NCBI RefSeq assembly: GCF_000257645.1
Contig: NZ_AJHJ01000045.1
Location: 1-36,286, forward strand
Source of the DNA: Serratia sp. M24T3
GTDB taxonomy: Bacteria; Pseudomonadota; Gammaproteobacteria; Enterobacterales; Enterobacteriaceae
Reading direction: 5' to 3'
Length of the DNA stretch: 36,286 bases
Part shown: in pieces, positions 22,072 through 30,751 of the stretch
Numbering within the stretch: the first letter of the stretch is position 1
Layout: every line of letters starts with the position of its first letter
Made by a program: the position numbers and the translations under genes
Notes under the pieces: generated by a model
What the model saw: only the letters and a program-made list of their open reading frames with translations
What the model was told of the DNA's origin: nothing
Databases searched by the model: none

Positions 22072-22989
22072 TTAAACACCGCTTGCTGATCGTTGGCGAT
22101 CTCGCAGTTCATGCACCAAATCGATCAACGCTTTCAATCCTGGCGGAATATGGCGGCGGCCGGAATAGTAGAGGCGCAGCCCGTCAAACGATGGGCACCA
22201 GTCTTCGAGCACGCTGTGTAGATTGCCATTGACCAAGTCTTTTTCTATGAACCAGCTTGAAATAAAGGCCAGCCCGATACCGTTGCGCGCTGCCTGTCGA
22301 ATCGCGCGTAACTCATTGAGGACGACGCGGGTGGGCATGTTGATCGTAAACTTTTGCTGGTGGCGCTCCAACTCCCAGTGATAAATCCCGCCGTGTGACA
22401 TGCGCATGCCAATGCCCAGATGATTCGCCAAATCGTCCGGTGACTGCGGCTTGCCGCGAGCCGCGAAATATTCCGGGCTACCGACAATCAGCATCCTCAT
22501 CGGAGGGGTTAAGGGAACGGCAATCATATCCTGCGGCACAGACTCGGCAAGGCGGATACCGGCGTCAAACCCTTCGGCGATGATATCGACCATTCGCGGC
22601 TCGGTCGCAATATCCAGACGCATATTCGGATAACGTTGCAAATATTCACGCAGCAACGGCTCAAACAAAATCATGGCTGATTCAGGAGGGGCGTTGATGC
22701 GCAATGTGCCGGTTGGCGTTTCAGGTAAAGTGCTGATCTCTTCTGACGCGCGTTGGATTTCGGCCAGCGCCGGGGCGATGCGCTCGACGTAGCGACGCCC
22801 GGCTTCGGTCAGCGAAACGCTGCGGGTGGAGCGATTAAATAGCCTGATATTTAGCCGTGTCTCAAGACCGGCTATGGCATTGCTGACCGCCGTGGCAGAC
22901 ATACCCAGCTCGCGGGCTGCCGCACGAAAGCTGCTGCGCTGCGCAACCGCCAGAGTGACTTCCAGTTCTGTTAGCCCGGTGCGATGCAT
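22072..22989 (-). CDS. LysR-family transcriptional regulator
   Basis: A 305-residue LysR regulator with an N-terminal winged helix-turn-helix (about 4-62; recognition part about 20-41, FRAAARELGMSATAVSNAI) and a periplasmic-binding-like effector domain (about 90-295). Its ligand is unknown. It is divergent from the aldehyde dehydrogenase across a 123-base gap between the two start codons, the usual layout of a LysR regulator and its target. The style (NRSTRSVSLTEAGRRY) is that of the large 'CrgA/YafC-like' set, which gives no hint of ligand. Confidence 0.9.
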   Translation of the reverse strand: MHRTGLTELEVTLAVAQRSSFRAAARELGMSATAVSNAIAGLETRLNIRLFNRSTRSVSLTEAGRRYVERIAPALAEIQRASEEISTLPETPTGTLRINAPPESAMILFEPLLREYLQRYPNMRLDIATEPRMVDIIAEGFDAGIRLAESVPQDMIAVPLTPPMRMLIVGSPEYFAARGKPQSPDDLANHLGIGMRMSHGGIYHWELERHQQKFTINMPTRVVLNELRAIRQAARNGIGLAFISSWFIEKDLVNGNLHSVLEDWCPSFDGLRLYYSGRRHIPPGLKALIDLVHELRDRQRSASGV

Positions 22990-23112
22990 AAAAGATTATC
23001 CTGATTTTCGGTATTCCCCGTACAGCATAACCCCGCTTATCAGAGCAACAAAGCCTTCTTATACTCCTTGTCATCAAGCAGACGCCAGCTCGGCGTCGTA
23101 AAGGAGAACATC

Positions 23113-24531
23113 ATGCAGCACATCGATAAAATCTATATCAACGGTGAATTTGTCACGCCGCACGGCACCGAGTTGTTTGAGCTGTTTAATCCGGCGACCG
23201 AGGAGGTGATCGGCACGGTACGAATGGCGGATGTTGAAGATACCCAGCCCGCGATTGCCGCTGCAAAAGCCGCGTTTCCGGCCTGGTCCCGCACCACTAA
23301 GCAACAGCGAGTTGAGTTTCTGACACGTATGCATGCTGCCGTGGTCGAGTGCGAAAACGAACTGTTAGAAGCGATTATCGAAGAATATGGCGCGCCTGTC
23401 GCCCGTTCTAGCTGGATGGCGACTTACCCGGCAGACGTAATTTTGCAGGCTATTGAAGCGCTGGAGTCTTTCGAATTTGAAGAGCAGGCGGGAGCGGCGC
23501 AGGTAATTTATTCTCCGGTTGGAGTGGCAGGATTGATTACGCCATGGAACAGCGACGCCGGTTTTATCTGTAACAAGCTGGCGACGGCGCTGGCTGCTGG
23601 ATGTACTGCGGTCATTAAACCTAGCGAAATGAGTGCGATGCAGACTCAAATCATCACCCAGGCACTGCACAAGGCAGGGCTGCCAGCAGGTGTCTTCAAT
23701 ATTGTCACTGGCCGTGGTGATGTCGTCGGTGCTGAAATCAGTCGCCACCCAGATATCGCCAAAATATCCTTTACCGGCTCGACGGCGGTAGGTAAGGGGA
23801 TTGTCGAGAGCAGCGCGGCGACACTTAAGAGAGTGACGCTTGAACTCGGCGGCAAATCTCCGACCATTATTCTTGACGATGCAGACGCCGCTACGGTCGT
23901 GCCGATGGCGCTGATGGCCGGTTTTGGCAATAGTGGTCAAGCCTGTATTGCCGGAACCCGTATTCTGGTGCCGCAAAGCCGTTTAGGTGAATTTGAACAG
24001 GCTTTTGCTTTCGCTGTTACTTACATTAAGTCTGGCGATCCTCGCGATGAAAGCACTGATATTGGGCCGATGGTCAGCCGCAAACAGTGGGAAAGGGTGC
24101 AGGGTTATATTCGTCTGGGCATTGAAGAGGGAGCTAAAGTGCTGATTGGCGGCGAAGGGCGTCCGCAGGGATTTGACAAAGGCTGGCTGGTAAAACCTAC
24201 GATATTTACCAGTGCAAACAATCAGATGCGTATTGCCCGTGAAGAAATTTTTGGACCGGTGCTGGTGATCATTCCTTATCTGGATGAGGACGATGCTATT
24301 GCCATCGCCAATGATACTTCCTATGGTTTGAACGCCATCGTTCTGAGCGGAGATTTGCAACGCGGAATCAGCGTGGCGCGGCAAATCGAGACTGGCCGCG
24401 TGTTGGTAAATACCTTTGCGCATGAGCCAAAAGCGCCATTTGGCGGCGTTAAGCAGTCTGGCCTGGGCCGCGAAATGGGTAAATGGGGGCTTTCTGCTTA
24501 CCTGGAGCCAAAAACGCTGTTGGTCGGTTAA
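23113..24531 (+). CDS. NAD(P)-dependent aldehyde dehydrogenase
   Basis: A 472-residue aldehyde dehydrogenase superfamily enzyme, oxidising an unknown aldehyde to the acid. In this numbering the catalytic residues are Asn146 (TPWNS), Glu244 (LELGGKSP) and Cys278 (GQACIAGTR); the NAD motif FTGSTAVGKGI and C-terminal PFGGVKQSGLGRE are present. ATG 23113 is chosen because AAGGAG (23101-23106) precedes it by 6 bases; an upstream ATG (23068) would add 15 residues with no homology I know. A hairpin TACCCCG/CGGGGTA (24546-24570) after the stop lacks a T-run. Control by the divergent LysR gene is inferred. Confidence 0.9.
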   Translation: MQHIDKIYINGEFVTPHGTELFELFNPATEEVIGTVRMADVEDTQPAIAAAKAAFPAWSRTTKQQRVEFLTRMHAAVVECENELLEAIIEEYGAPVARSSWMATYPADVILQAIEALESFEFEEQAGAAQVIYSPVGVAGLITPWNSDAGFICNKLATALAAGCTAVIKPSEMSAMQTQIITQALHKAGLPAGVFNIVTGRGDVVGAEISRHPDIAKISFTGSTAVGKGIVESSAATLKRVTLELGGKSPTIILDDADAATVVPMALMAGFGNSGQACIAGTRILVPQSRLGEFEQAFAFAVTYIKSGDPRDESTDIGPMVSRKQWERVQGYIRLGIEEGAKVLIGGEGRPQGFDKGWLVKPTIFTSANNQMRIAREEIFGPVLVIIPYLDEDDAIAIANDTSYGLNAIVLSGDLQRGISVARQIETGRVLVNTFAHEPKAPFGGVKQSGLGREMGKWGLSAYLEPKTLLVG

Positions 24532-25223: not shown

Positions 25224-26303
25224 ATGCGTTATCTGGCCACCCTTCTTCCTATGGTTGTTCTGCTCTCAGCCTGTAGCAGCACGCCAAAACATAATACTGC
25301 GCAGGGCACGGCCCCGAGTGGCGGATTTTTAAATCCTCCTTCGCAGAATGGCTTCTTTACCAACGGTGCCAATGGCGATTTTGCCGATAATCCAGCCGCG
25401 AACGCCTTCATTGACAAGATGGTGCGCGAGCACGGATTCGACCGCCAGCAGTTGCAAAACACTTTCGGCCAGACGAAACGTCTGGACTGGGTATTGCGCT
25501 TGATGGACCGTCAGGCTCCGACCACGCTACCGCCTTCAGGGCCTTATGGCGCGTGGATCCGTTATCGCGGCAAGTTTATTACGCCAGATAACGTGCAGAA
25601 TGGCGTCGCCTTCTGGGATCAGTATCAGGACGCGCTGCAGCGTGCCTATCAGCAATACGGCGTGCCGCCGGAGATTATTGTCGGGATTATCGGTGTTGAA
25701 ACTCGTTGGGGCAGGGTGATGGGCAAGACGCGTATCATCGATGCGCTGGCGACGCTGGCGTTTGACTACCCGCGCCGTGCCGATTATTTTGCCGGTGAGC
25801 TGGAAACCTTCCTGTTGATGTCGCGGTCTGAAAATGACGATCCGCTGTTGCTGCGCGGCTCATTTGCCGGTGCGATGGGCTATGGGCAGTTTATGCCGTC
25901 AGCGTTCAAACAGTTCGCGGTAGATTTCGACGGTGACGGGCACATTAACCTGTGGGACCCCATCGATGCTATCGGTAGCGTCGCCAATTACTTTAAAGCG
26001 AATGGCTGGGTCAGTGGCGAGCCGGTTGCGGTGCAGGCCAGCGGACAGGCGCCCGGGCTGGAAAACGGTTATCAAACCAAGTATTCCGTCTCCACGCTGT
26101 CTTCAGTGGGCCTGATGCCACTCGGATCGCTTGGCGGTTATCAGCAGGCTAGCCTTTTGCGTCTGGATATGGGCACGAGCTATCAGTATTGGTATGGTTT
26201 ACCAAACTTCTACGCGATTACGCGCTACAACCACAGCACGCAGTATGCAATGGCAGTGTGGCAGCTGGGTCTGGCAGTCAAGCAGGCACGCGGCGGATCA
26301 TAA
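25224..26303 (+). CDS. mltB: Membrane-bound lytic murein transglycosylase B
   Basis: MltB cleaves the glycan strands of peptidoglycan to 1,6-anhydromuropeptides. The 359-residue protein is an outer-membrane lipoprotein (lipobox LSAC, Cys17). The catalytic Glu159 is in GIIGVETRWGR, matching Glu162 of E. coli Slt35, and the Ca-binding EF-hand-like loop DFDGDGHINLWD is present. Length compares with 361 in E. coli. It sits ahead of pncC-recA as in E. coli, but here with an operon inserted between. Confidence 0.96.
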   Translation: MRYLATLLPMVVLLSACSSTPKHNTAQGTAPSGGFLNPPSQNGFFTNGANGDFADNPAANAFIDKMVREHGFDRQQLQNTFGQTKRLDWVLRLMDRQAPTTLPPSGPYGAWIRYRGKFITPDNVQNGVAFWDQYQDALQRAYQQYGVPPEIIVGIIGVETRWGRVMGKTRIIDALATLAFDYPRRADYFAGELETFLLMSRSENDDPLLLRGSFAGAMGYGQFMPSAFKQFAVDFDGDGHINLWDPIDAIGSVANYFKANGWVSGEPVAVQASGQAPGLENGYQTKYSVSTLSSVGLMPLGSLGGYQQASLLRLDMGTSYQYWYGLPNFYAITRYNHSTQYAMAVWQLGLAVKQARGGS

Positions 26304-26308
26304 TGAAG

Positions 26309-26338
26309 ATGGCGGCCACAGTGGGCCGCCATTTTTTT
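26309..26338 (+). terminator. Terminator of mltB
   Basis: Nine-bp stem ATGGCGGCC (26309-26317) / GGCCGCCAT (26324-26332), loop ACAGTG, followed by a run of seven T. On the minus strand the tail is only CTTCATTAT, so it is a weaker stop for the convergent hydrolase operon. Confidence 0.9.
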
Positions 26339-26352
26339 AGCTATTCCTCGAT

Positions 26353-27036
26353 TCAGGCCAGCGCTTGCAGTACCGCTGCCGAATCCGCCACTGCCCCGAA
26401 AACTCCGCCCTGCATTTTTACCATCGCTAACGCCGCCAGATGATTGGCCGGATCTGTAGCCGCGCAGCAATCAGCAACCAGCAAACATTCAAATCCGCGA
26501 TCGTTGGCTTCACGCAGGGTGGTGTGAACGCACACGTCGGTCGTGATGCCCGTCAGCAAAAGGTTGGTTATTCCCTTTGTGTGCAACACCAGCTCCAAAT
26601 CGGTGGCATAAAACGAGCCTTTGCCCGGTTTGTCAATAATGATTTCTCCTGCTAACGGTTGAAGCTCGGGGATAATTTCCCAGCCCGGCTCGCCGCGTAC
26701 CAGAATTTTGCCACACGGGCCATCGTCGCCAATCCCCGCGCCAATCTGCCGTGAGCGCCAGCGCTTGTTGGCGGGCAAATCTGCCAAGTCTGGTCGGTGG
26801 CCTTCGCGAGTATGAATGATGGTATAACCGGCGCTGCGCATCACGCCCAGCAAATCGCCAATCGGTGCTATCGGGGCGCGGGTCAGGGCAATGTCATAGC
26901 CCATGGTGTCGACATAACCGCCGACGCCGCAAAAATCGGTCTGCATATCAATAATCACCAGCGCAGTGTTGGTCGGACTGAGCTGGCCATTGTAAGGCCA
27001 GGCATAAGGCGCGGATTCTATGTAGCGTTTGTTCAT
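26353..27036 (-). CDS. Isochorismatase-family cysteine hydrolase, probable biuret hydrolase
   Basis: A 227-residue isochorismatase-fold amidohydrolase. It recalls the biuret hydrolase (BiuH) of Rhizobium leguminosarum, which splits biuret to allophanate and ammonia. The catalytic triad is visible: Asp30 in IIDMQTDF, Lys136 in IDKPGKGSF and Cys169 in TTDVCVHTT. These are exactly six below the BiuH numbers I remember (36, 142, 175), and Gln209 fits the substrate glutamine at 215. The blocks YPWPYNG-like N-terminus, [20 protein letters not shown] and KMQGGVFG are also shared. Ureidoacrylate hydrolase RutB is a relative but lacks the biuret set by memory. Third gene of a leftward operon, 12 bases after the permease. 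No tool was used, so substrate is inferred. Confidence 0.8.
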
Positions 27037-27048
27037 TGGCTTTGCCCC

Positions 27049-28347
27049 TTATGCAGTAACCAGTTTTTTGGCAGTCATTGACTGAATGATCGAGTAAGCC
27101 ACGCCGCCAGCGATCATGCCGATCAGAGCCTCGCCGAAGTCGGGGAACCACAGGTGAGCAATCGATGCGCAAACTGTGCCGATGGCCCAGGATAAAAACG
27201 CACTGCCGCGATAATGGCTTTCGGCGCGCGCGCTGTTGATATGGCCGAGGAATAACAGGTCAACAATCATCACCGCGCCGATAGGGGGCACGGCTACGCC
27301 CAGCAGGCTCAGCCAGTTGAGGAAATAGCTCCATACGCCAATCACTGCCAGCACGCCGCCAATTACGCCGAGAATAATGGTCCACAGGCGCATTTTACTG
27401 TTCAGCAAATGGCTATAACCCACCGCGCCGTTGTACAGGCAATGGGTGCAGACTGATCCAAGATTGATAAACACGAACAGCAGGGCCAGCAGGTTCAATA
27501 GCACATTATGACCGACCAGCAGATGCAGGAAATCGCCGCCGTTTTGAGCTGGGTTAATTCCCGCACCTGCCGAAACAATTACCACCCCAGACAGCAACGA
27601 GACGACGTTAGCAACCGGAAAAGCCGAGAAAGTGGCGGCTACGGCTGATTTACCGGTTTGTGACCAGCGGGTGAAATCGGCGGTCATGGTGCCCGAATCG
27701 GCAAAACCGGCAATCACCATCGTCATGGCAATCCCCATCGTGATACCACCTGCGGTACCTTTATATTGCGTCACCTGACTTAAATCAGTGTGTTGTGAAA
27801 CAAAATACAGCGCTGCCAGGCCCAGGATCACAAACATGGGTGCTGCAATCATGCCGATGATCGACAGGGCGCGCACGCCGAGGAAAGTGACACCAGTGTA
27901 AAGCACGGTGGCGAGCACGATCACCCACGAGGTGTTCCAGCCAAAAGTGCTGTTGACGATGGTGCCGGTGAGGCCGGTCTGGAAAGCGTACCAGCCGATT
28001 ACCACGGTTGAAAGAAATGCCGAGGTAATGATGTAACCCCGGCTGCCAAAAGTTTTACGTGCCTGCATCGCGAAGTTAAGTCCGGTTTTACCCGCCAGAT
28101 AACTTAGTGCGCCAACATAGGCAAACAGCACCAGATTGCCGAGCAAAATGGCAATAATTGCCCGCCAGAACCCAAGATTGTAGGCCATGATGCCGCCAAA
28201 AACGGCATTGGTAAGAATCATGGGGAAACCAAACCACACCGCTGAAACTGAACGGGTCGAATGGCGATGAGAAAGTGGCACTGCTTCATTTTCGAATTCT
28301 TGTTCCAGCCCGATGGCCGTATCCTGCCGAGTGATGTTTTTGCTCAT
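27049..28347 (-). CDS. NCS1-family permease (CodB-type cytosine/ureide transporter)
   Basis: A 432-residue integral membrane protein of the nucleobase-cation symporter-1 family. It has about 12 hydrophobic segments after a polar N-terminus of about 33 residues. Similarities to E. coli CodB include the GNLVLFAYVGALSYLAGKTGL segment (compare GNLLLGIYTSFLGYIGAKTGL), GTMTADFTRW near residue 220 and VPPIGAVMIVDLL. Known NCS1 substrates include cytosine, allantoin, hydantoins and uracil. Given the flanking amidase and cysteine hydrolase, import of biuret or a related ureide is the likely role. It lies 44 bases after the amidase and 12 before the hydrolase. Confidence 0.88.
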   Translation of the reverse strand: MSKNITRQDTAIGLEQEFENEAVPLSHRHSTRSVSAVWFGFPMILTNAVFGGIMAYNLGFWRAIIAILLGNLVLFAYVGALSYLAGKTGLNFAMQARKTFGSRGYIITSAFLSTVVIGWYAFQTGLTGTIVNSTFGWNTSWVIVLATVLYTGVTFLGVRALSIIGMIAAPMFVILGLAALYFVSQHTDLSQVTQYKGTAGGITMGIAMTMVIAGFADSGTMTADFTRWSQTGKSAVAATFSAFPVANVVSLLSGVVIVSAGAGINPAQNGGDFLHLLVGHNVLLNLLALLFVFINLGSVCTHCLYNGAVGYSHLLNSKMRLWTIILGVIGGVLAVIGVWSYFLNWLSLLGVAVPPIGAVMIVDLLFLGHINSARAESHYRGSAFLSWAIGTVCASIAHLWFPDFGEALIGMIAGGVAYSIIQSMTAKKLVTA

Positions 28348-28391
28348 GGTGTTGTTCCTGAAAAATGTGGCAACAAGGGAAAACGGGACCT

Positions 28392-29828
28392 TCAGCGGCT
28401 GAGGATCGGCGGCAACCGATCATTCCAGCCACAGACTTTTTCAAACGCTGCACTGGCGCGTAACACCAGCGCATCATCAAGATGTCGGCCAATAATTTGC
28501 AATCCCACCGGCAACCCTTGCGCGGTAAATCCGGCGGGGATCGAGGCGGCAGGCTGGCCGGTCAAATTTATCGGGAAGACAAAAGCGAGCCATTCACTTG
28601 GCGTGACCTTGCGGCCATCAATCATCTCGGGGCTTTCTATATTGACCGGGAAGGGCGGCGTCGCGAGAGTCGGTGTCAGCAGCAGGTCGTAGCGCTGCAT
28701 AAAGCGCCACATTTTGTTGACCACCGCCTTGCGTTGCATGTTGGCATTGGTAAACATTTCGGCGGTCCAGTCGGTGTTAAGCATCGCGACCAGATGGGGA
28801 GACATACGACTGCCAAAGGTTTCCAGCAGTTTGCGCATGCCGGTGAGGTCAGTTTCCTGAGCCACAAGCGCGGCAAAAGTGTCTTTAGGATCCTCAAAGC
28901 CGGGATGCGCTTCTTCTACGACGCAACCGAGATCACGCTCGAAGACTTTTACTGCCTTACCGACGATCTCGCGGACCTGCGGATCCACTGCTGCGTAGCC
29001 CCAGTCAGCGCTGTAGGCAACGCGCAGACCTTTAAGACTGCCTTTAAGCGCACCGTTCCAGTCAATATCGCTGGTGGGAATTGAATGACGATCGCGCGAG
29101 TCAGGCCCGGCGATTACGGAAAGCATCAGCGCTGCATCGGCGACGCTGCGGGTCATTGGGCCGATGTGTTCCAGCGATTCCCAGCTGGAGATGCCGGGAT
29201 AGCGCTCGTCGCGGCAGCCGGGATACAGCGGCACGCGGCCCATCGAGGCTTTCATGCCAAATATGCCACTGTGCGCGGCGGGAATGCGTACCGAACCGCC
29301 GCCGTCGCTGCCTAAAGCCAGCGGGCAAATTCTTGCTGCGAGTGCCGCCGCAGAACCGGCGCTAGACCCGCCGGTGGTCAGGTCGGTATTCCACGGATTA
29401 CGGGTTGTTGGGAACACCGGATTGTGCCCGGTGCCGCTGTAGCCAAATTCCGGGGCATTGGTTTTGCCGAGAATAATGGCCCCCGCAGCCTTAAGCCGTT
29501 CTACGGTAATGTCGTCTTCGTCAGGAATAAAATTTTCATAAATCCACGAACCAGAGACTGTTTTGATCCCTTTGGTACTGATCAAATCTTTAATCGCCAC
29601 GGGAATTCCTGCCAGCGGGCCGACTTCTTCACCACGCATGATTCGTTGCTCGATGACTTTGGCCTGCGCCAGCGCACTCTCTGTGGTTGGGGTACAAAAG
29701 GCATGCAGCTCGGGTTCAAGCTGTTCCATCCGCGCAATTGAAGCAGACACCAGCTCCACCGGAGAAAGGCGCCTATCGCGAATATTGGCCGCAAGTGTCA
29801 CGGCATCAAGCTGAAGAATATCCTGCAT
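28392..29828 (-). CDS. Amidase-signature-family hydrolase, first gene of the ureide operon
   Basis: A 478-residue amidase of the Ser-cisSer-Lys family: Lys80 (VAIKDLI), cis-Ser155 in GGSSAGS and nucleophile Ser179 in SDGGGSVRIPA. The usual length is about 450-500, so it is complete. It is shorter than AtzF-type allophanate hydrolases (about 600, with an extra C-terminal domain), but could act on allophanate, a carboxybiuret-like acid or another amide. Start choice: ATG 29828 gives MQDIL, with GGGAG 11 bases upstream. A TTG two codons earlier has better SD spacing, and a frame open to 29882 lacks one. I favour 29828, uncertain by a few residues. Confidence 0.82.
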   Translation of the reverse strand: MQDILQLDAVTLAANIRDRRLSPVELVSASIARMEQLEPELHAFCTPTTESALAQAKVIEQRIMRGEEVGPLAGIPVAIKDLISTKGIKTVSGSWIYENFIPDEDDITVERLKAAGAIILGKTNAPEFGYSGTGHNPVFPTTRNPWNTDLTTGGSSAGSAAALAARICPLALGSDGGGSVRIPAAHSGIFGMKASMGRVPLYPGCRDERYPGISSWESLEHIGPMTRSVADAALMLSVIAGPDSRDRHSIPTSDIDWNGALKGSLKGLRVAYSADWGYAAVDPQVREIVGKAVKVFERDLGCVVEEAHPGFEDPKDTFAALVAQETDLTGMRKLLETFGSRMSPHLVAMLNTDWTAEMFTNANMQRKAVVNKMWRFMQRYDLLLTPTLATPPFPVNIESPEMIDGRKVTPSEWLAFVFPINLTGQPAASIPAGFTAQGLPVGLQIIGRHLDDALVLRASAAFEKVCGWNDRLPPILSR

Positions 29829-30256
29829 CGTCAAATCCACTCCCGTTACAATTCCTGGTGATAACTTGCATATTGCTAGCAATGCACGTTTCAGGCCAAA
29901 AATAGGCGTGGTGAATAAATAACCGCAAAAATATTTCTAACATCTTGTATACAGCGCGGTATTCCAGTTTGTCCGGGCAGATTGTTTTTACAACATTCGA
30001 TACAGGGCGGGGCTATACAAATAAGCGATTCACCGTGGGGGTGCAGCGATCCTAAAAAGTGGTGCAGAAACAGACTGGAGCTTGAAATAATGGGAATTTG
30101 GCCCCATTTGAGAGGAGACTCGAAAGAATATTGCTAGCGGATGTTCACATTATTCATAACCTGGACGTTATCTCGTAATGTAAGGTTTAGAACCGATCCT
30201 TTAAGCCGTGAAGTGCTAACATTGCCTGAGTTCCCTTTTTTCTTGCAGGATAGACG
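29829..30256. promoter_or_regulatory. Divergent control region of the amidase operon and pncC
   Basis: A 428-base AT-rich gap with no gene I can support. TTGTATACA (29945-29953) and an inverted TATACAA (30014-30020) lie about 60 bases apart and look like operators of a GntR-type (FCD) repressor, a guess from the motif alone. A palindrome TTGCTAGCAA lies near 29873-29882, and TTGCTAGC recurs near 30131. No promoter was fixed for either gene. No regulator gene is adjacent. Confidence 0.35.
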
Positions 30257-30751
30257 ATGACTGAAAATGATTTGCGTCAATTGAGCACCGACGTCGGTGC
30301 CGCCTTGAAATCCAAGGGCCTGTGGCTAACCTGTGCTGAATCCTGCACGGGTGGTTGGGTCGCCAAAGCTATTACTGATATTGCCGGCAGCTCTGCCTGG
30401 TTTGACCGCGGTTTTGTCACTTACAGCAACGTTGCCAAGCGCGAGATGCTCGATGTATCAGAATCCACGCTCAAAGAGCATGGCGCAGTGAGTGAACCCG
30501 TAGTGCGCGAGATGGCCCGAGGAGCGCGCTATGCGGCCGGCGCTGATTTGGCGGTATCAATCAGCGGCATTGCCGGCCCGGACGGCGGCACAAAAGATAA
30601 ACCGGTTGGCACTGTGTGGTTTGGATTTGCCGATGAAAACGGTCGAATTTTTGCCTGCAAAAAGAATTTTTCTGGGGATCGCGACGCAGTGCGTTTGCAA
30701 GCTGCTGTTTTTTCACTACAAACTTTGCTAGACGAGTTTTTGAAAAAATAG
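30257..30751 (+). CDS. pncC: Nicotinamide-nucleotide amidohydrolase PncC
   Basis: PncC deamidates NMN to nicotinate mononucleotide in pyridine-nucleotide recycling. The 164-residue protein (CinA C-terminal domain only; E. coli YgaD is 165) has AESCTGG with Ser29, ERGFVTYSN-like RGFVTYSN and SISGIAGPDGG. It stands before recA as in E. coli. The recA promoter starts just past the stop codon, so pncC is read separately, perhaps with readthrough. Confidence 0.96.
   Translation: MTENDLRQLSTDVGAALKSKGLWLTCAESCTGGWVAKAITDIAGSSAWFDRGFVTYSNVAKREMLDVSESTLKEHGAVSEPVVREMARGARYAAGADLAVSISGIAGPDGGTKDKPVGTVWFGFADENGRIFACKKNFSGDRDAVRLQAAVFSLQTLLDEFLKK

Follow-up and report, generated by a model that had tools for sequence, protein, structure and literature searches.

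The window analysed here is a stretch of 36,286 nucleotides from Serratia sp. M24T3 (contig NZ_AJHJ01000045.1), in which three leftward genes, for an amidase-signature hydrolase, a permease and an isochorismatase-fold hydrolase, lie between mltB and pncC. Which compound do these three proteins handle and, if it is biuret, which enzyme disposes of the allophanate that is formed? An earlier note on this DNA had proposed a biuret or ureide operon whose amidase hydrolyses allophanate. In our analysis, the three-gene set very likely imports biuret and begins its breakdown, and it is probably switched on at nitrogen scarcity. Taken as a whole, the explanation that we hold to be probable is a nitrogen-controlled biuret operon that feeds the housekeeping allophanate hydrolase of the host. 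Papers are cited by PMC number and from excerpts, to which the statements taken from them are limited.

Probable biuret hydrolase and likely fate of allophanate

When the hydrolase was scored against the NCBIfam equivalog model for biuret amidohydrolase (NF050097), it reached 417 bits (cut-off 370), and it is 74 % identical to the solved Rhizobium enzyme RlBiuH. The best PDB matches were 6azo and its variants (including 5bk6), followed by 6xjm, a chain named biuret hydrolase, and then by 6xix and 6xj4; the first two entries are RlBiuH (PMC5806882) and the last two are the triuret-related enzyme TrtA (PMC7948467). The catalytic triad Asp30-Lys136-Cys169 and the binding residues Lys139, Phe35 and Gln209 are present (D36, K142, C175, K145, F41 and Q215 in RlBiuH), and the constant offset of six that the earlier note had given for the triad and Gln209 holds in the alignment. 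At the 16 active-site positions of RlBiuH that were compared (taken from PMC5806882), the hydrolase is identical throughout. Likewise, the BiuH-type residue was found at each of the six positions that discriminate TrtA from BiuH according to PMC7948467 (Tyr41, Tyr47, Ser141, Asp167, Thr194 and Val212). Four TrtA-like rows deviate at all six; the Val212 marker is not absolute (Ile in the BiuH of Duffyella and Pantoea soli).

Two other identities were considered. Ureidoacrylate amidohydrolase (RutB), against which the earlier note had proposed a comparison, was rejected at 116.3 bits (cut-off 377.95), and TrtA was rejected on the six BiuH-type markers. No TrtA was seen in the host, where the second-best match to the BiuH model has 138 bits; TrtA-like rows reach 228 (locus L052), 278 and 276 bits (L021 and L022) with the same model. 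As the isochorismatase Pfam family matches nine places in the window genome, the fold alone says little; what identifies the hydrolase is the equivalog model together with the residues. On that basis a genuine biuret hydrolase is very probable, as had been proposed. Hydrolases of the BiuH/TrtA clade that stay below the BiuH cut-off (247-262 bits) were also seen in three genomes, accompanying a true BiuH in two (G672 and G667) and standing alone in the third (G670).

The final step had been left open in the earlier note, and a complete enzyme for it was found in the host genome (5.25 Mb, 113 contigs). A full-length allophanate hydrolase (G000:C4:38424-40109; 812.7 bits, cut-off 511) adjoins urea carboxylase (1961 bits, cut-off 1304) and the urea-binding protein UrtA (594 bits, cut-off 493); its link to biuret is one that we infer. 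The proposal that the amidase of the operon finishes allophanate was not borne out: besides the separate enzyme, the amidase scores 162.1 bits as allophanate hydrolase (AtzF; cut-off 511.05) and is without the Tyr/Arg pair of the allophanate hydrolase motif, which we take to be substrate residues. This pair is replaced by Phe and a gap in all four amidase-family rows compared, and is kept in the host allophanate hydrolase and in an allophanate hydrolase-like amidase of Salipiger. Furthermore, six genomes that have BiuH and the permease without the amidase do have allophanate hydrolase. The earlier remark that the amidase is too short for a standard allophanate hydrolase is a weak argument by itself, since a fragment of AtzF with some 467 residues was still active as an amidase (PMC3944691).

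A survey of 392 genomes of the family found BiuH above its cut-off in 13 and allophanate hydrolase (counted at E<=1e-150) in 125. Allophanate hydrolase was present in 12 of the 13 genomes with BiuH versus 113 of the 379 without (Fisher p 7e-6, kinship being ignored); both draws of 392 were taken as the same set, their handles being in agreement. Among 26 genomes behind loci chosen from the permease survey described below (26 of 80), 23 have allophanate hydrolase and 15 have BiuH above the cut-off.

Predicted promoter, gene layout and insertion site

A sigma-54 type element (TGGCCTGAAACGTGCA) and an NtrC-like site (TGCACCCCCACGGTGAA) were predicted upstream of the amidase gene (Table 1), using what are presumably the accepted -24/-12 and NtrC-site consensus sequences. 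Alone, TGGCCTGAAACGTGCA is weak, its score being reached in 58 of 2000 shuffles. When 27 distinct upstream regions were compared, a sigma-54 element scoring at least 13 was found 20-80 bases before the amidase in 22 (16 of them with a score of 15). As controls, 70 of 5400 dinucleotide shuffles had such an element, as did 17 of 277 other open reading frames (ORFs) of the same loci. Regions with the element include those of Rouxiella, Ewingella, Pantoea, Duffyella and Erwinia. Two amidase-less Pantoea loci, dropped from the 27 together with the incomplete locus L093, keep a sigma-54-type site about 190 bases before the permease. The score of TGCACCCCCACGGTGAA was reached in 2 of 2000 mononucleotide shuffles, and a site with 11 of 12 consensus bases is also present in Rouxiella silvae. 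Scanning the operon region for sigma-70 sites yielded 2, compared with 2.4 in shuffles. Sigma-54 control of the operon is a prediction well supported by sequence, and NtrC control is likely by inference only. An upstream TTG start for the amidase (29882) was rejected because it would precede the inferred transcription start.

Table 1 Features of the operon region, with positions in the window
Feature	Position	Strand	Size or remark
Amidase-signature hydrolase gene	28392-29828	minus	478 aa
NCS1 permease gene	27049-28347	minus	432 aa
biuH (isochorismatase-fold hydrolase)	26353-27036	minus	227 aa
Terminator-like hairpin in the gap where biuH and mltB converge	26309-26332	minus	position suits operon end
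Sigma-54 type -24/-12 promoter TGGCCTGAAACGTGCA	29883-29898	minus	54 bases before amidase ATG; predicted
NtrC-like site TGCACCCCCACGGTGAA	30029-30045	minus	11/12 consensus bases; predicted

The coordinates and strand of the three genes, their order and the gaps of 44 and 12 bases were verified, as was the position of the operon in the window between mltB (end at 26303; convergent, downstream, 49 bases apart) and pncC (start at 30257; divergent, upstream, 428 bases apart). The hairpin is weak as a scan result, the region holding nine terminator-like hairpins against a shuffle mean of 5.2 (standard deviation 2.2). In E. coli strain M217, the one genome read, mltB, pncC and recA are adjacent and the operon is missing, in agreement with the earlier note, and a blastn search with the operon, at the DNA level only, found no match in 5,426 E. 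coli genomes.

The nearest named relative of the host is R. silvae 213 (permease 92 % and RecA 98 % identical), and we presume the host to be a Rouxiella species. The operon lies in the mltB-pncC gap in the window species, in a genome of the same species (G398) and in R. silvae. In two congeners (G623 and G496) the operon is not in the gap, which measures 227 and 267 bases, respectively; blastn of the window stretch against these sites matched mltB nearly to its end, left the operon unmatched and resumed about 50 bases before pncC (G623) or within pncC (G496). A genome of the Ewingella group (G446) has mltB beside pncC and the operon at another place. A single acquisition in the lineage of the window species and R. 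silvae would explain this pattern. Base composition gave no sign of foreign origin, with GC at third codon positions of 0.61-0.62 in the operon and 0.52-0.64 in seven other window genes. Elsewhere in the window (22072-24531), a divergent pair of a LysR regulator and an aldehyde dehydrogenase stands beside mutS and is kept in R. silvae and the same-species genome; the regulator reached no NCBIfam cut-off among the models shown.

Permease, amidase and competing explanations

The permease belongs to Pfam PF02133 (NCS1 family). The earlier designation as CodB-type stands insofar as it is CodB-related, but cytosine permease itself was rejected (PRK11017, 195 bits versus a cut-off of 326), and where the solved cytosine permease has the segment TTNDNALY, the window protein has SVCTHCLY. 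We consider the protein a putative biuret or ureide importer, with biuret as the presumed substrate because of the repeated pairing with BiuH. The NCS1 protein MetT carries metformin, a linear biguanide (PMC13390362), so an NCS1 protein can carry a linear nitrogen-rich compound of this kind; the two are likened by description.

The amidase (Pfam PF01425, Lys80-Ser155-Ser179) stayed below all 25 NCBIfam cut-offs shown, the best being PRK06169 (466.8 versus 506 bits). In the case of AtzE (1-carboxybiuret amidohydrolase), the scores were also too low (257.3 versus 461 and 246.2 versus 425.75); AtzE needs the partner AtzG (PMC6219798), and the gaps between the operon genes leave no room for an atzG gene. 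When 48 amidases (47 loci and the window) were aligned, 134 positions kept the window residue in at least 97 % of them, and members as far apart as Enterobacterales and Gordonia have the loop GCRDERYPG-SSWE in common, slightly altered in some sequences (e.g. GTKDERYPG in Geodermatophilus). Because of these positions and the shared loop, the amidases look like one narrow family. We regard this as a separate conserved family that partners this type of permease and is not the allophanate hydrolase. A relative with 62 % identity in Salipiger profundus belongs to a gene run that also holds an ABC transporter, a pair of BiuH-like hydrolases (329 and 341 bits, below the cut-off and without the Gln), AtzG, AtzE, HpxZ and the allophanate hydrolase-like amidase mentioned above (408 versus 511 and 452 versus 487 bits). 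On a Pseudomonas silvicola plasmid (L058, CP093281.1 768723-781880), relatives of the amidase and the permease are annotated as several short fragments and are apparently decayed or hit by sequencing errors.

A profile search of genome contigs with the permease alignment confirmed 167 relatives, of which the best 80 were kept, and neighbours were counted within 400 bases of the permease. In seven of the 80 cases the locus ends less than 1600 bases from the permease, and at three loci BiuH lies beyond the distance counted. Clustering of neighbouring ORFs was swamped by spurious long ORFs in high-GC loci and was redone by conservation; outside the family-scored loci, neighbour names are readings of the sequences. 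Both amidase and BiuH were found at 21 of these loci, amidase only at 26, BiuH only at 7 and neither at 26, so that the amidase adjoins the permease in 47 of the 80. The 21 loci belong to Rouxiella, Ewingella, Pantoea, Cedecea with one relative, and one Rhodococcus; two records titled Enterobacter among them group with Pantoea on the permease tree. In Duffyella and several Pantoea the operon sits on large plasmids; in P. agglomerans HJS002 the record that holds it is titled chromosome. The earlier note did not know the set as an enterobacterial system, and in the literature searched no earlier report of this set in Enterobacterales was found, a claim limited to that search; the set itself is widespread in Enterobacterales, including Pantoea, Ewingella, Duffyella and Cedecea.

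BiuH and permease without amidase occur in Pantoea ananatis, P. allii and five Nocardia loci. In the six of these seven whose genomes were searched for it (two Pantoea and four Nocardia), no close amidase copy was found anywhere: the best identities were 37-41 %, with no match at E<=1e-60 in P. allii, compared with 64 % in the positive, Erwinia aphidicola. Allophanate hydrolase was found in all six (the P. allii match spans 123-563 of 563). In Erwinia aphidicola, amidase and permease are present at two identical places, and BiuH gave no match.

The permease tree (85 rows) was midpoint-rooted, and its long branches make the deeper joins unsure. The 27 enterobacterial rows fall together (support 100/99) within a group of 37 (99/98), whose other ten rows all have the amidase, except for one Beijerinckia row. 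Permeases linked to BiuH stand at three places: Enterobacterales, Nocardia (BiuH only) and Rhodococcus (BiuH and amidase). The simplest history would be that the amidase-permease pair came first and that Enterobacterales and actinomycetes gained BiuH independently of each other, the amidase being lost afterwards in two Pantoea and BiuH in Erwinia aphidicola.

Put together, the scheme would run as follows. At nitrogen limitation, NtrC and sigma-54 RNA polymerase would start transcription about 40-50 bases before the amidase gene, as the conserved sites suggest, and the NCS1 permease would import biuret. BiuH would, on its strong homology, split biuret into allophanate and ammonia, and the allophanate hydrolase present beside urea carboxylase on the chromosome would turn allophanate into ammonia and CO2. 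The amidase may be an accessory enzyme of the same permease, for a second imported or related ureide or amide. Triuret is an unlikely source because no TrtA was seen in the host; cyanuric acid hydrolase (PF09663) gave no match in the host either, in a search whose control matched nowhere.

Several points weigh against this scheme. The sigma-54 threshold of 13 is the window's own score and was set post hoc, many of the 27 upstream regions come from related Pantoea and hence are not independent, and all five regions without a scored site belong to the Cedecea group. Outside Rouxiella, NtrC-like sites match at only 9-10 of 12 bases or are absent, and loss of ntrC by mutation improved growth of B. 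cenocepacia on biuret (PMC5491218). Specificity does not follow from the presence of a single BiuH, given that one from Rhodococcus is a generalist for biuret and triuret (PMC7948467), and the gatA-like amidase beside archaeal biuH has been proposed as allophanate hydrolase (PMC12625717). One BiuH genome (G541/G684, taken as Cedecea neteri NBRC 105707) gave no allophanate hydrolase match, also on a second look; since allophanate can decay spontaneously to urea and CO2 (PMC6219798), this strain may lose or reroute it. The 26 amidase-permease pairs without adjacent BiuH, nine of which are in genomes without any BiuH match, suggest that the permease may carry something besides or instead of biuret.

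If the operon were self-sufficient, the amidase would itself convert the product of BiuH to ammonia, as a non-orthologous allophanate hydrolase. Its tight packing with BiuH, the activity of the AtzF fragment that has the amidase domain alone, the Cedecea genome and the archaeal proposal just cited all fit this idea. It is at odds with the allophanate hydrolase of 12 of the 13 BiuH genomes, the low AtzF score of the amidase and the gap at the presumed substrate Arg. It also sits badly with Salipiger, where the relative shares its gene run with a separate allophanate hydrolase-like amidase that keeps Tyr/Arg while staying below the allophanate hydrolase cut-offs, with the six amidase-less genomes that have allophanate hydrolase, and with the occurrence of the amidase in genomes without a BiuH match. 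We consider a self-sufficient operon improbable, and judged it slightly more so because no close amidase copy was found elsewhere in the six amidase-less genomes searched. Alternatively, biuret may be incidental and the operon may serve another ureide or amide. The wide occurrence of permease and amidase without BiuH points that way, and some permease relatives adjoin genes read, without family scoring, as allFGHK-type. The BiuH residue set and equivalog score argue against it, together with the high specificity of RlBiuH (PMC5806882), though the Rhodococcus generalist exists, and we think it quite unlikely.

The amidase could also be a second ureide hydrolase, acting on biuret, a substituted biuret or a ureido acid, and forming with the permease an older route that ran without BiuH until BiuH joined it. 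This agrees with the 47 loci where it adjoins the permease, 26 of them without adjacent BiuH, and with the nesting of the enterobacterial operons in the largely amidase-bearing tree group. It also agrees with allophanate hydrolase in eight of nine tested genomes where the amidase adjoins the permease and BiuH has no match at E<=1e-60, a figure that stands without a background rate for those phyla. However, the root is a midpoint only, other partners (formamidase, PxpA) point elsewhere, the redundancy with BiuH is left unexplained and the substrate is purely conjectural; we regard this route as possible, with the balance leaning against it. A broader proposal is offered as a speculation that is doubtful as it stands. 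The amidase would found an unrecognised narrow family of ureide amidohydrolases and form, with its NCS1 partner, a BiuH-independent route for biuret or a relative in Pseudomonadota, Actinomycetota and Acidobacteriota; Enterobacterales would later have added BiuH under sigma-54, and Nocardia and Rhodococcus would have joined BiuH to the permease independently.

Known biuret systems and significance

The nitrogen-controlled biuret operon that we favour was compared with known systems. The RlBiuH cluster on pRL10 of Rhizobium johnstonii (leguminosarum bv. viciae) 3841 has in common with it a BiuH, at the identity and active-site agreement given above. It differs in having a BMP-type ABC transporter, a formamidase, atzD, a second hydrolase and GntR, whereas the window operon has an NCS1 permease, another amidase and no atzD. 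Plasmid triuret-biuret clusters (atzF, ABC transporter, formamidase, biuH, a TrtA-like gene and GntR; comparable to the Herbaspirillum pathway) have the BiuH step and the completion by allophanate hydrolase in common with it. They carry atzF and the TrtA-like gene themselves, whereas the window operon has neither and its regulation appears to be of the NtrC/sigma-54 type. In ammonia-oxidising archaea, biuH contigs hold the same three kinds of gene, with a gatA-like amidohydrolase and, in a few, codB, and constitute an earlier report of co-location (PMC12625717); the excerpt describes no strong synteny across genera and no collocated atzF, and the amidases are likened by description only. Compared with the known biuret pathway, a different transporter, a nitrogen-type promoter, a final step supplied by urea metabolism and a conserved amidase would be new.

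Related genes were also seen on plasmids. A BiuH that shares 78 % identity with that of the window occurs on plasmids of Enterobacter, Klebsiella and Citrobacter isolated from patients, a drain and water. In the one that was read (L052, CP009856.1 15279-33956), atzF, an ABC transporter, a formamidase, biuH, a TrtA-like hydrolase and GntR stand between two transposase genes, so that this cluster for triuret and biuret is probably mobile. Of 290 plasmid records that matched as BiuH-like, 77 were from Escherichia, and six of these among the matches listed were 48 % identical. In the one read, an IncF poultry plasmid (L176, NZ_CP097720.1 143557-158216), the hydrolase leads genes for DUF2877, fdrA, DUF1116, carbamate kinase and a cytosine permease, with a LysR gene, an AllFGHK-like set. 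A formamidase-type gene recurs beside BiuH in ABC-transporter clusters and near amidase-NCS1 pairs (L099, L053, L052, L177, L050 and L055; family-scored in L099 and named by annotation in the other five), which suggests a shared further step.

The locus offers a candidate for a dedicated biuret transporter that can be put to the test, and it draws attention to a conserved amidase family. It also advises caution, as a neighbouring amidase should not be read as allophanate hydrolase before the rest of the genome has been checked. In Enterobacterales associated with plants and soil, biuret use would come under a promoter of the nitrogen type, and because urea fertiliser contains biuret as a plant-toxic impurity (PMC7700744), such bacteria would bear on the fate of biuret in soil.

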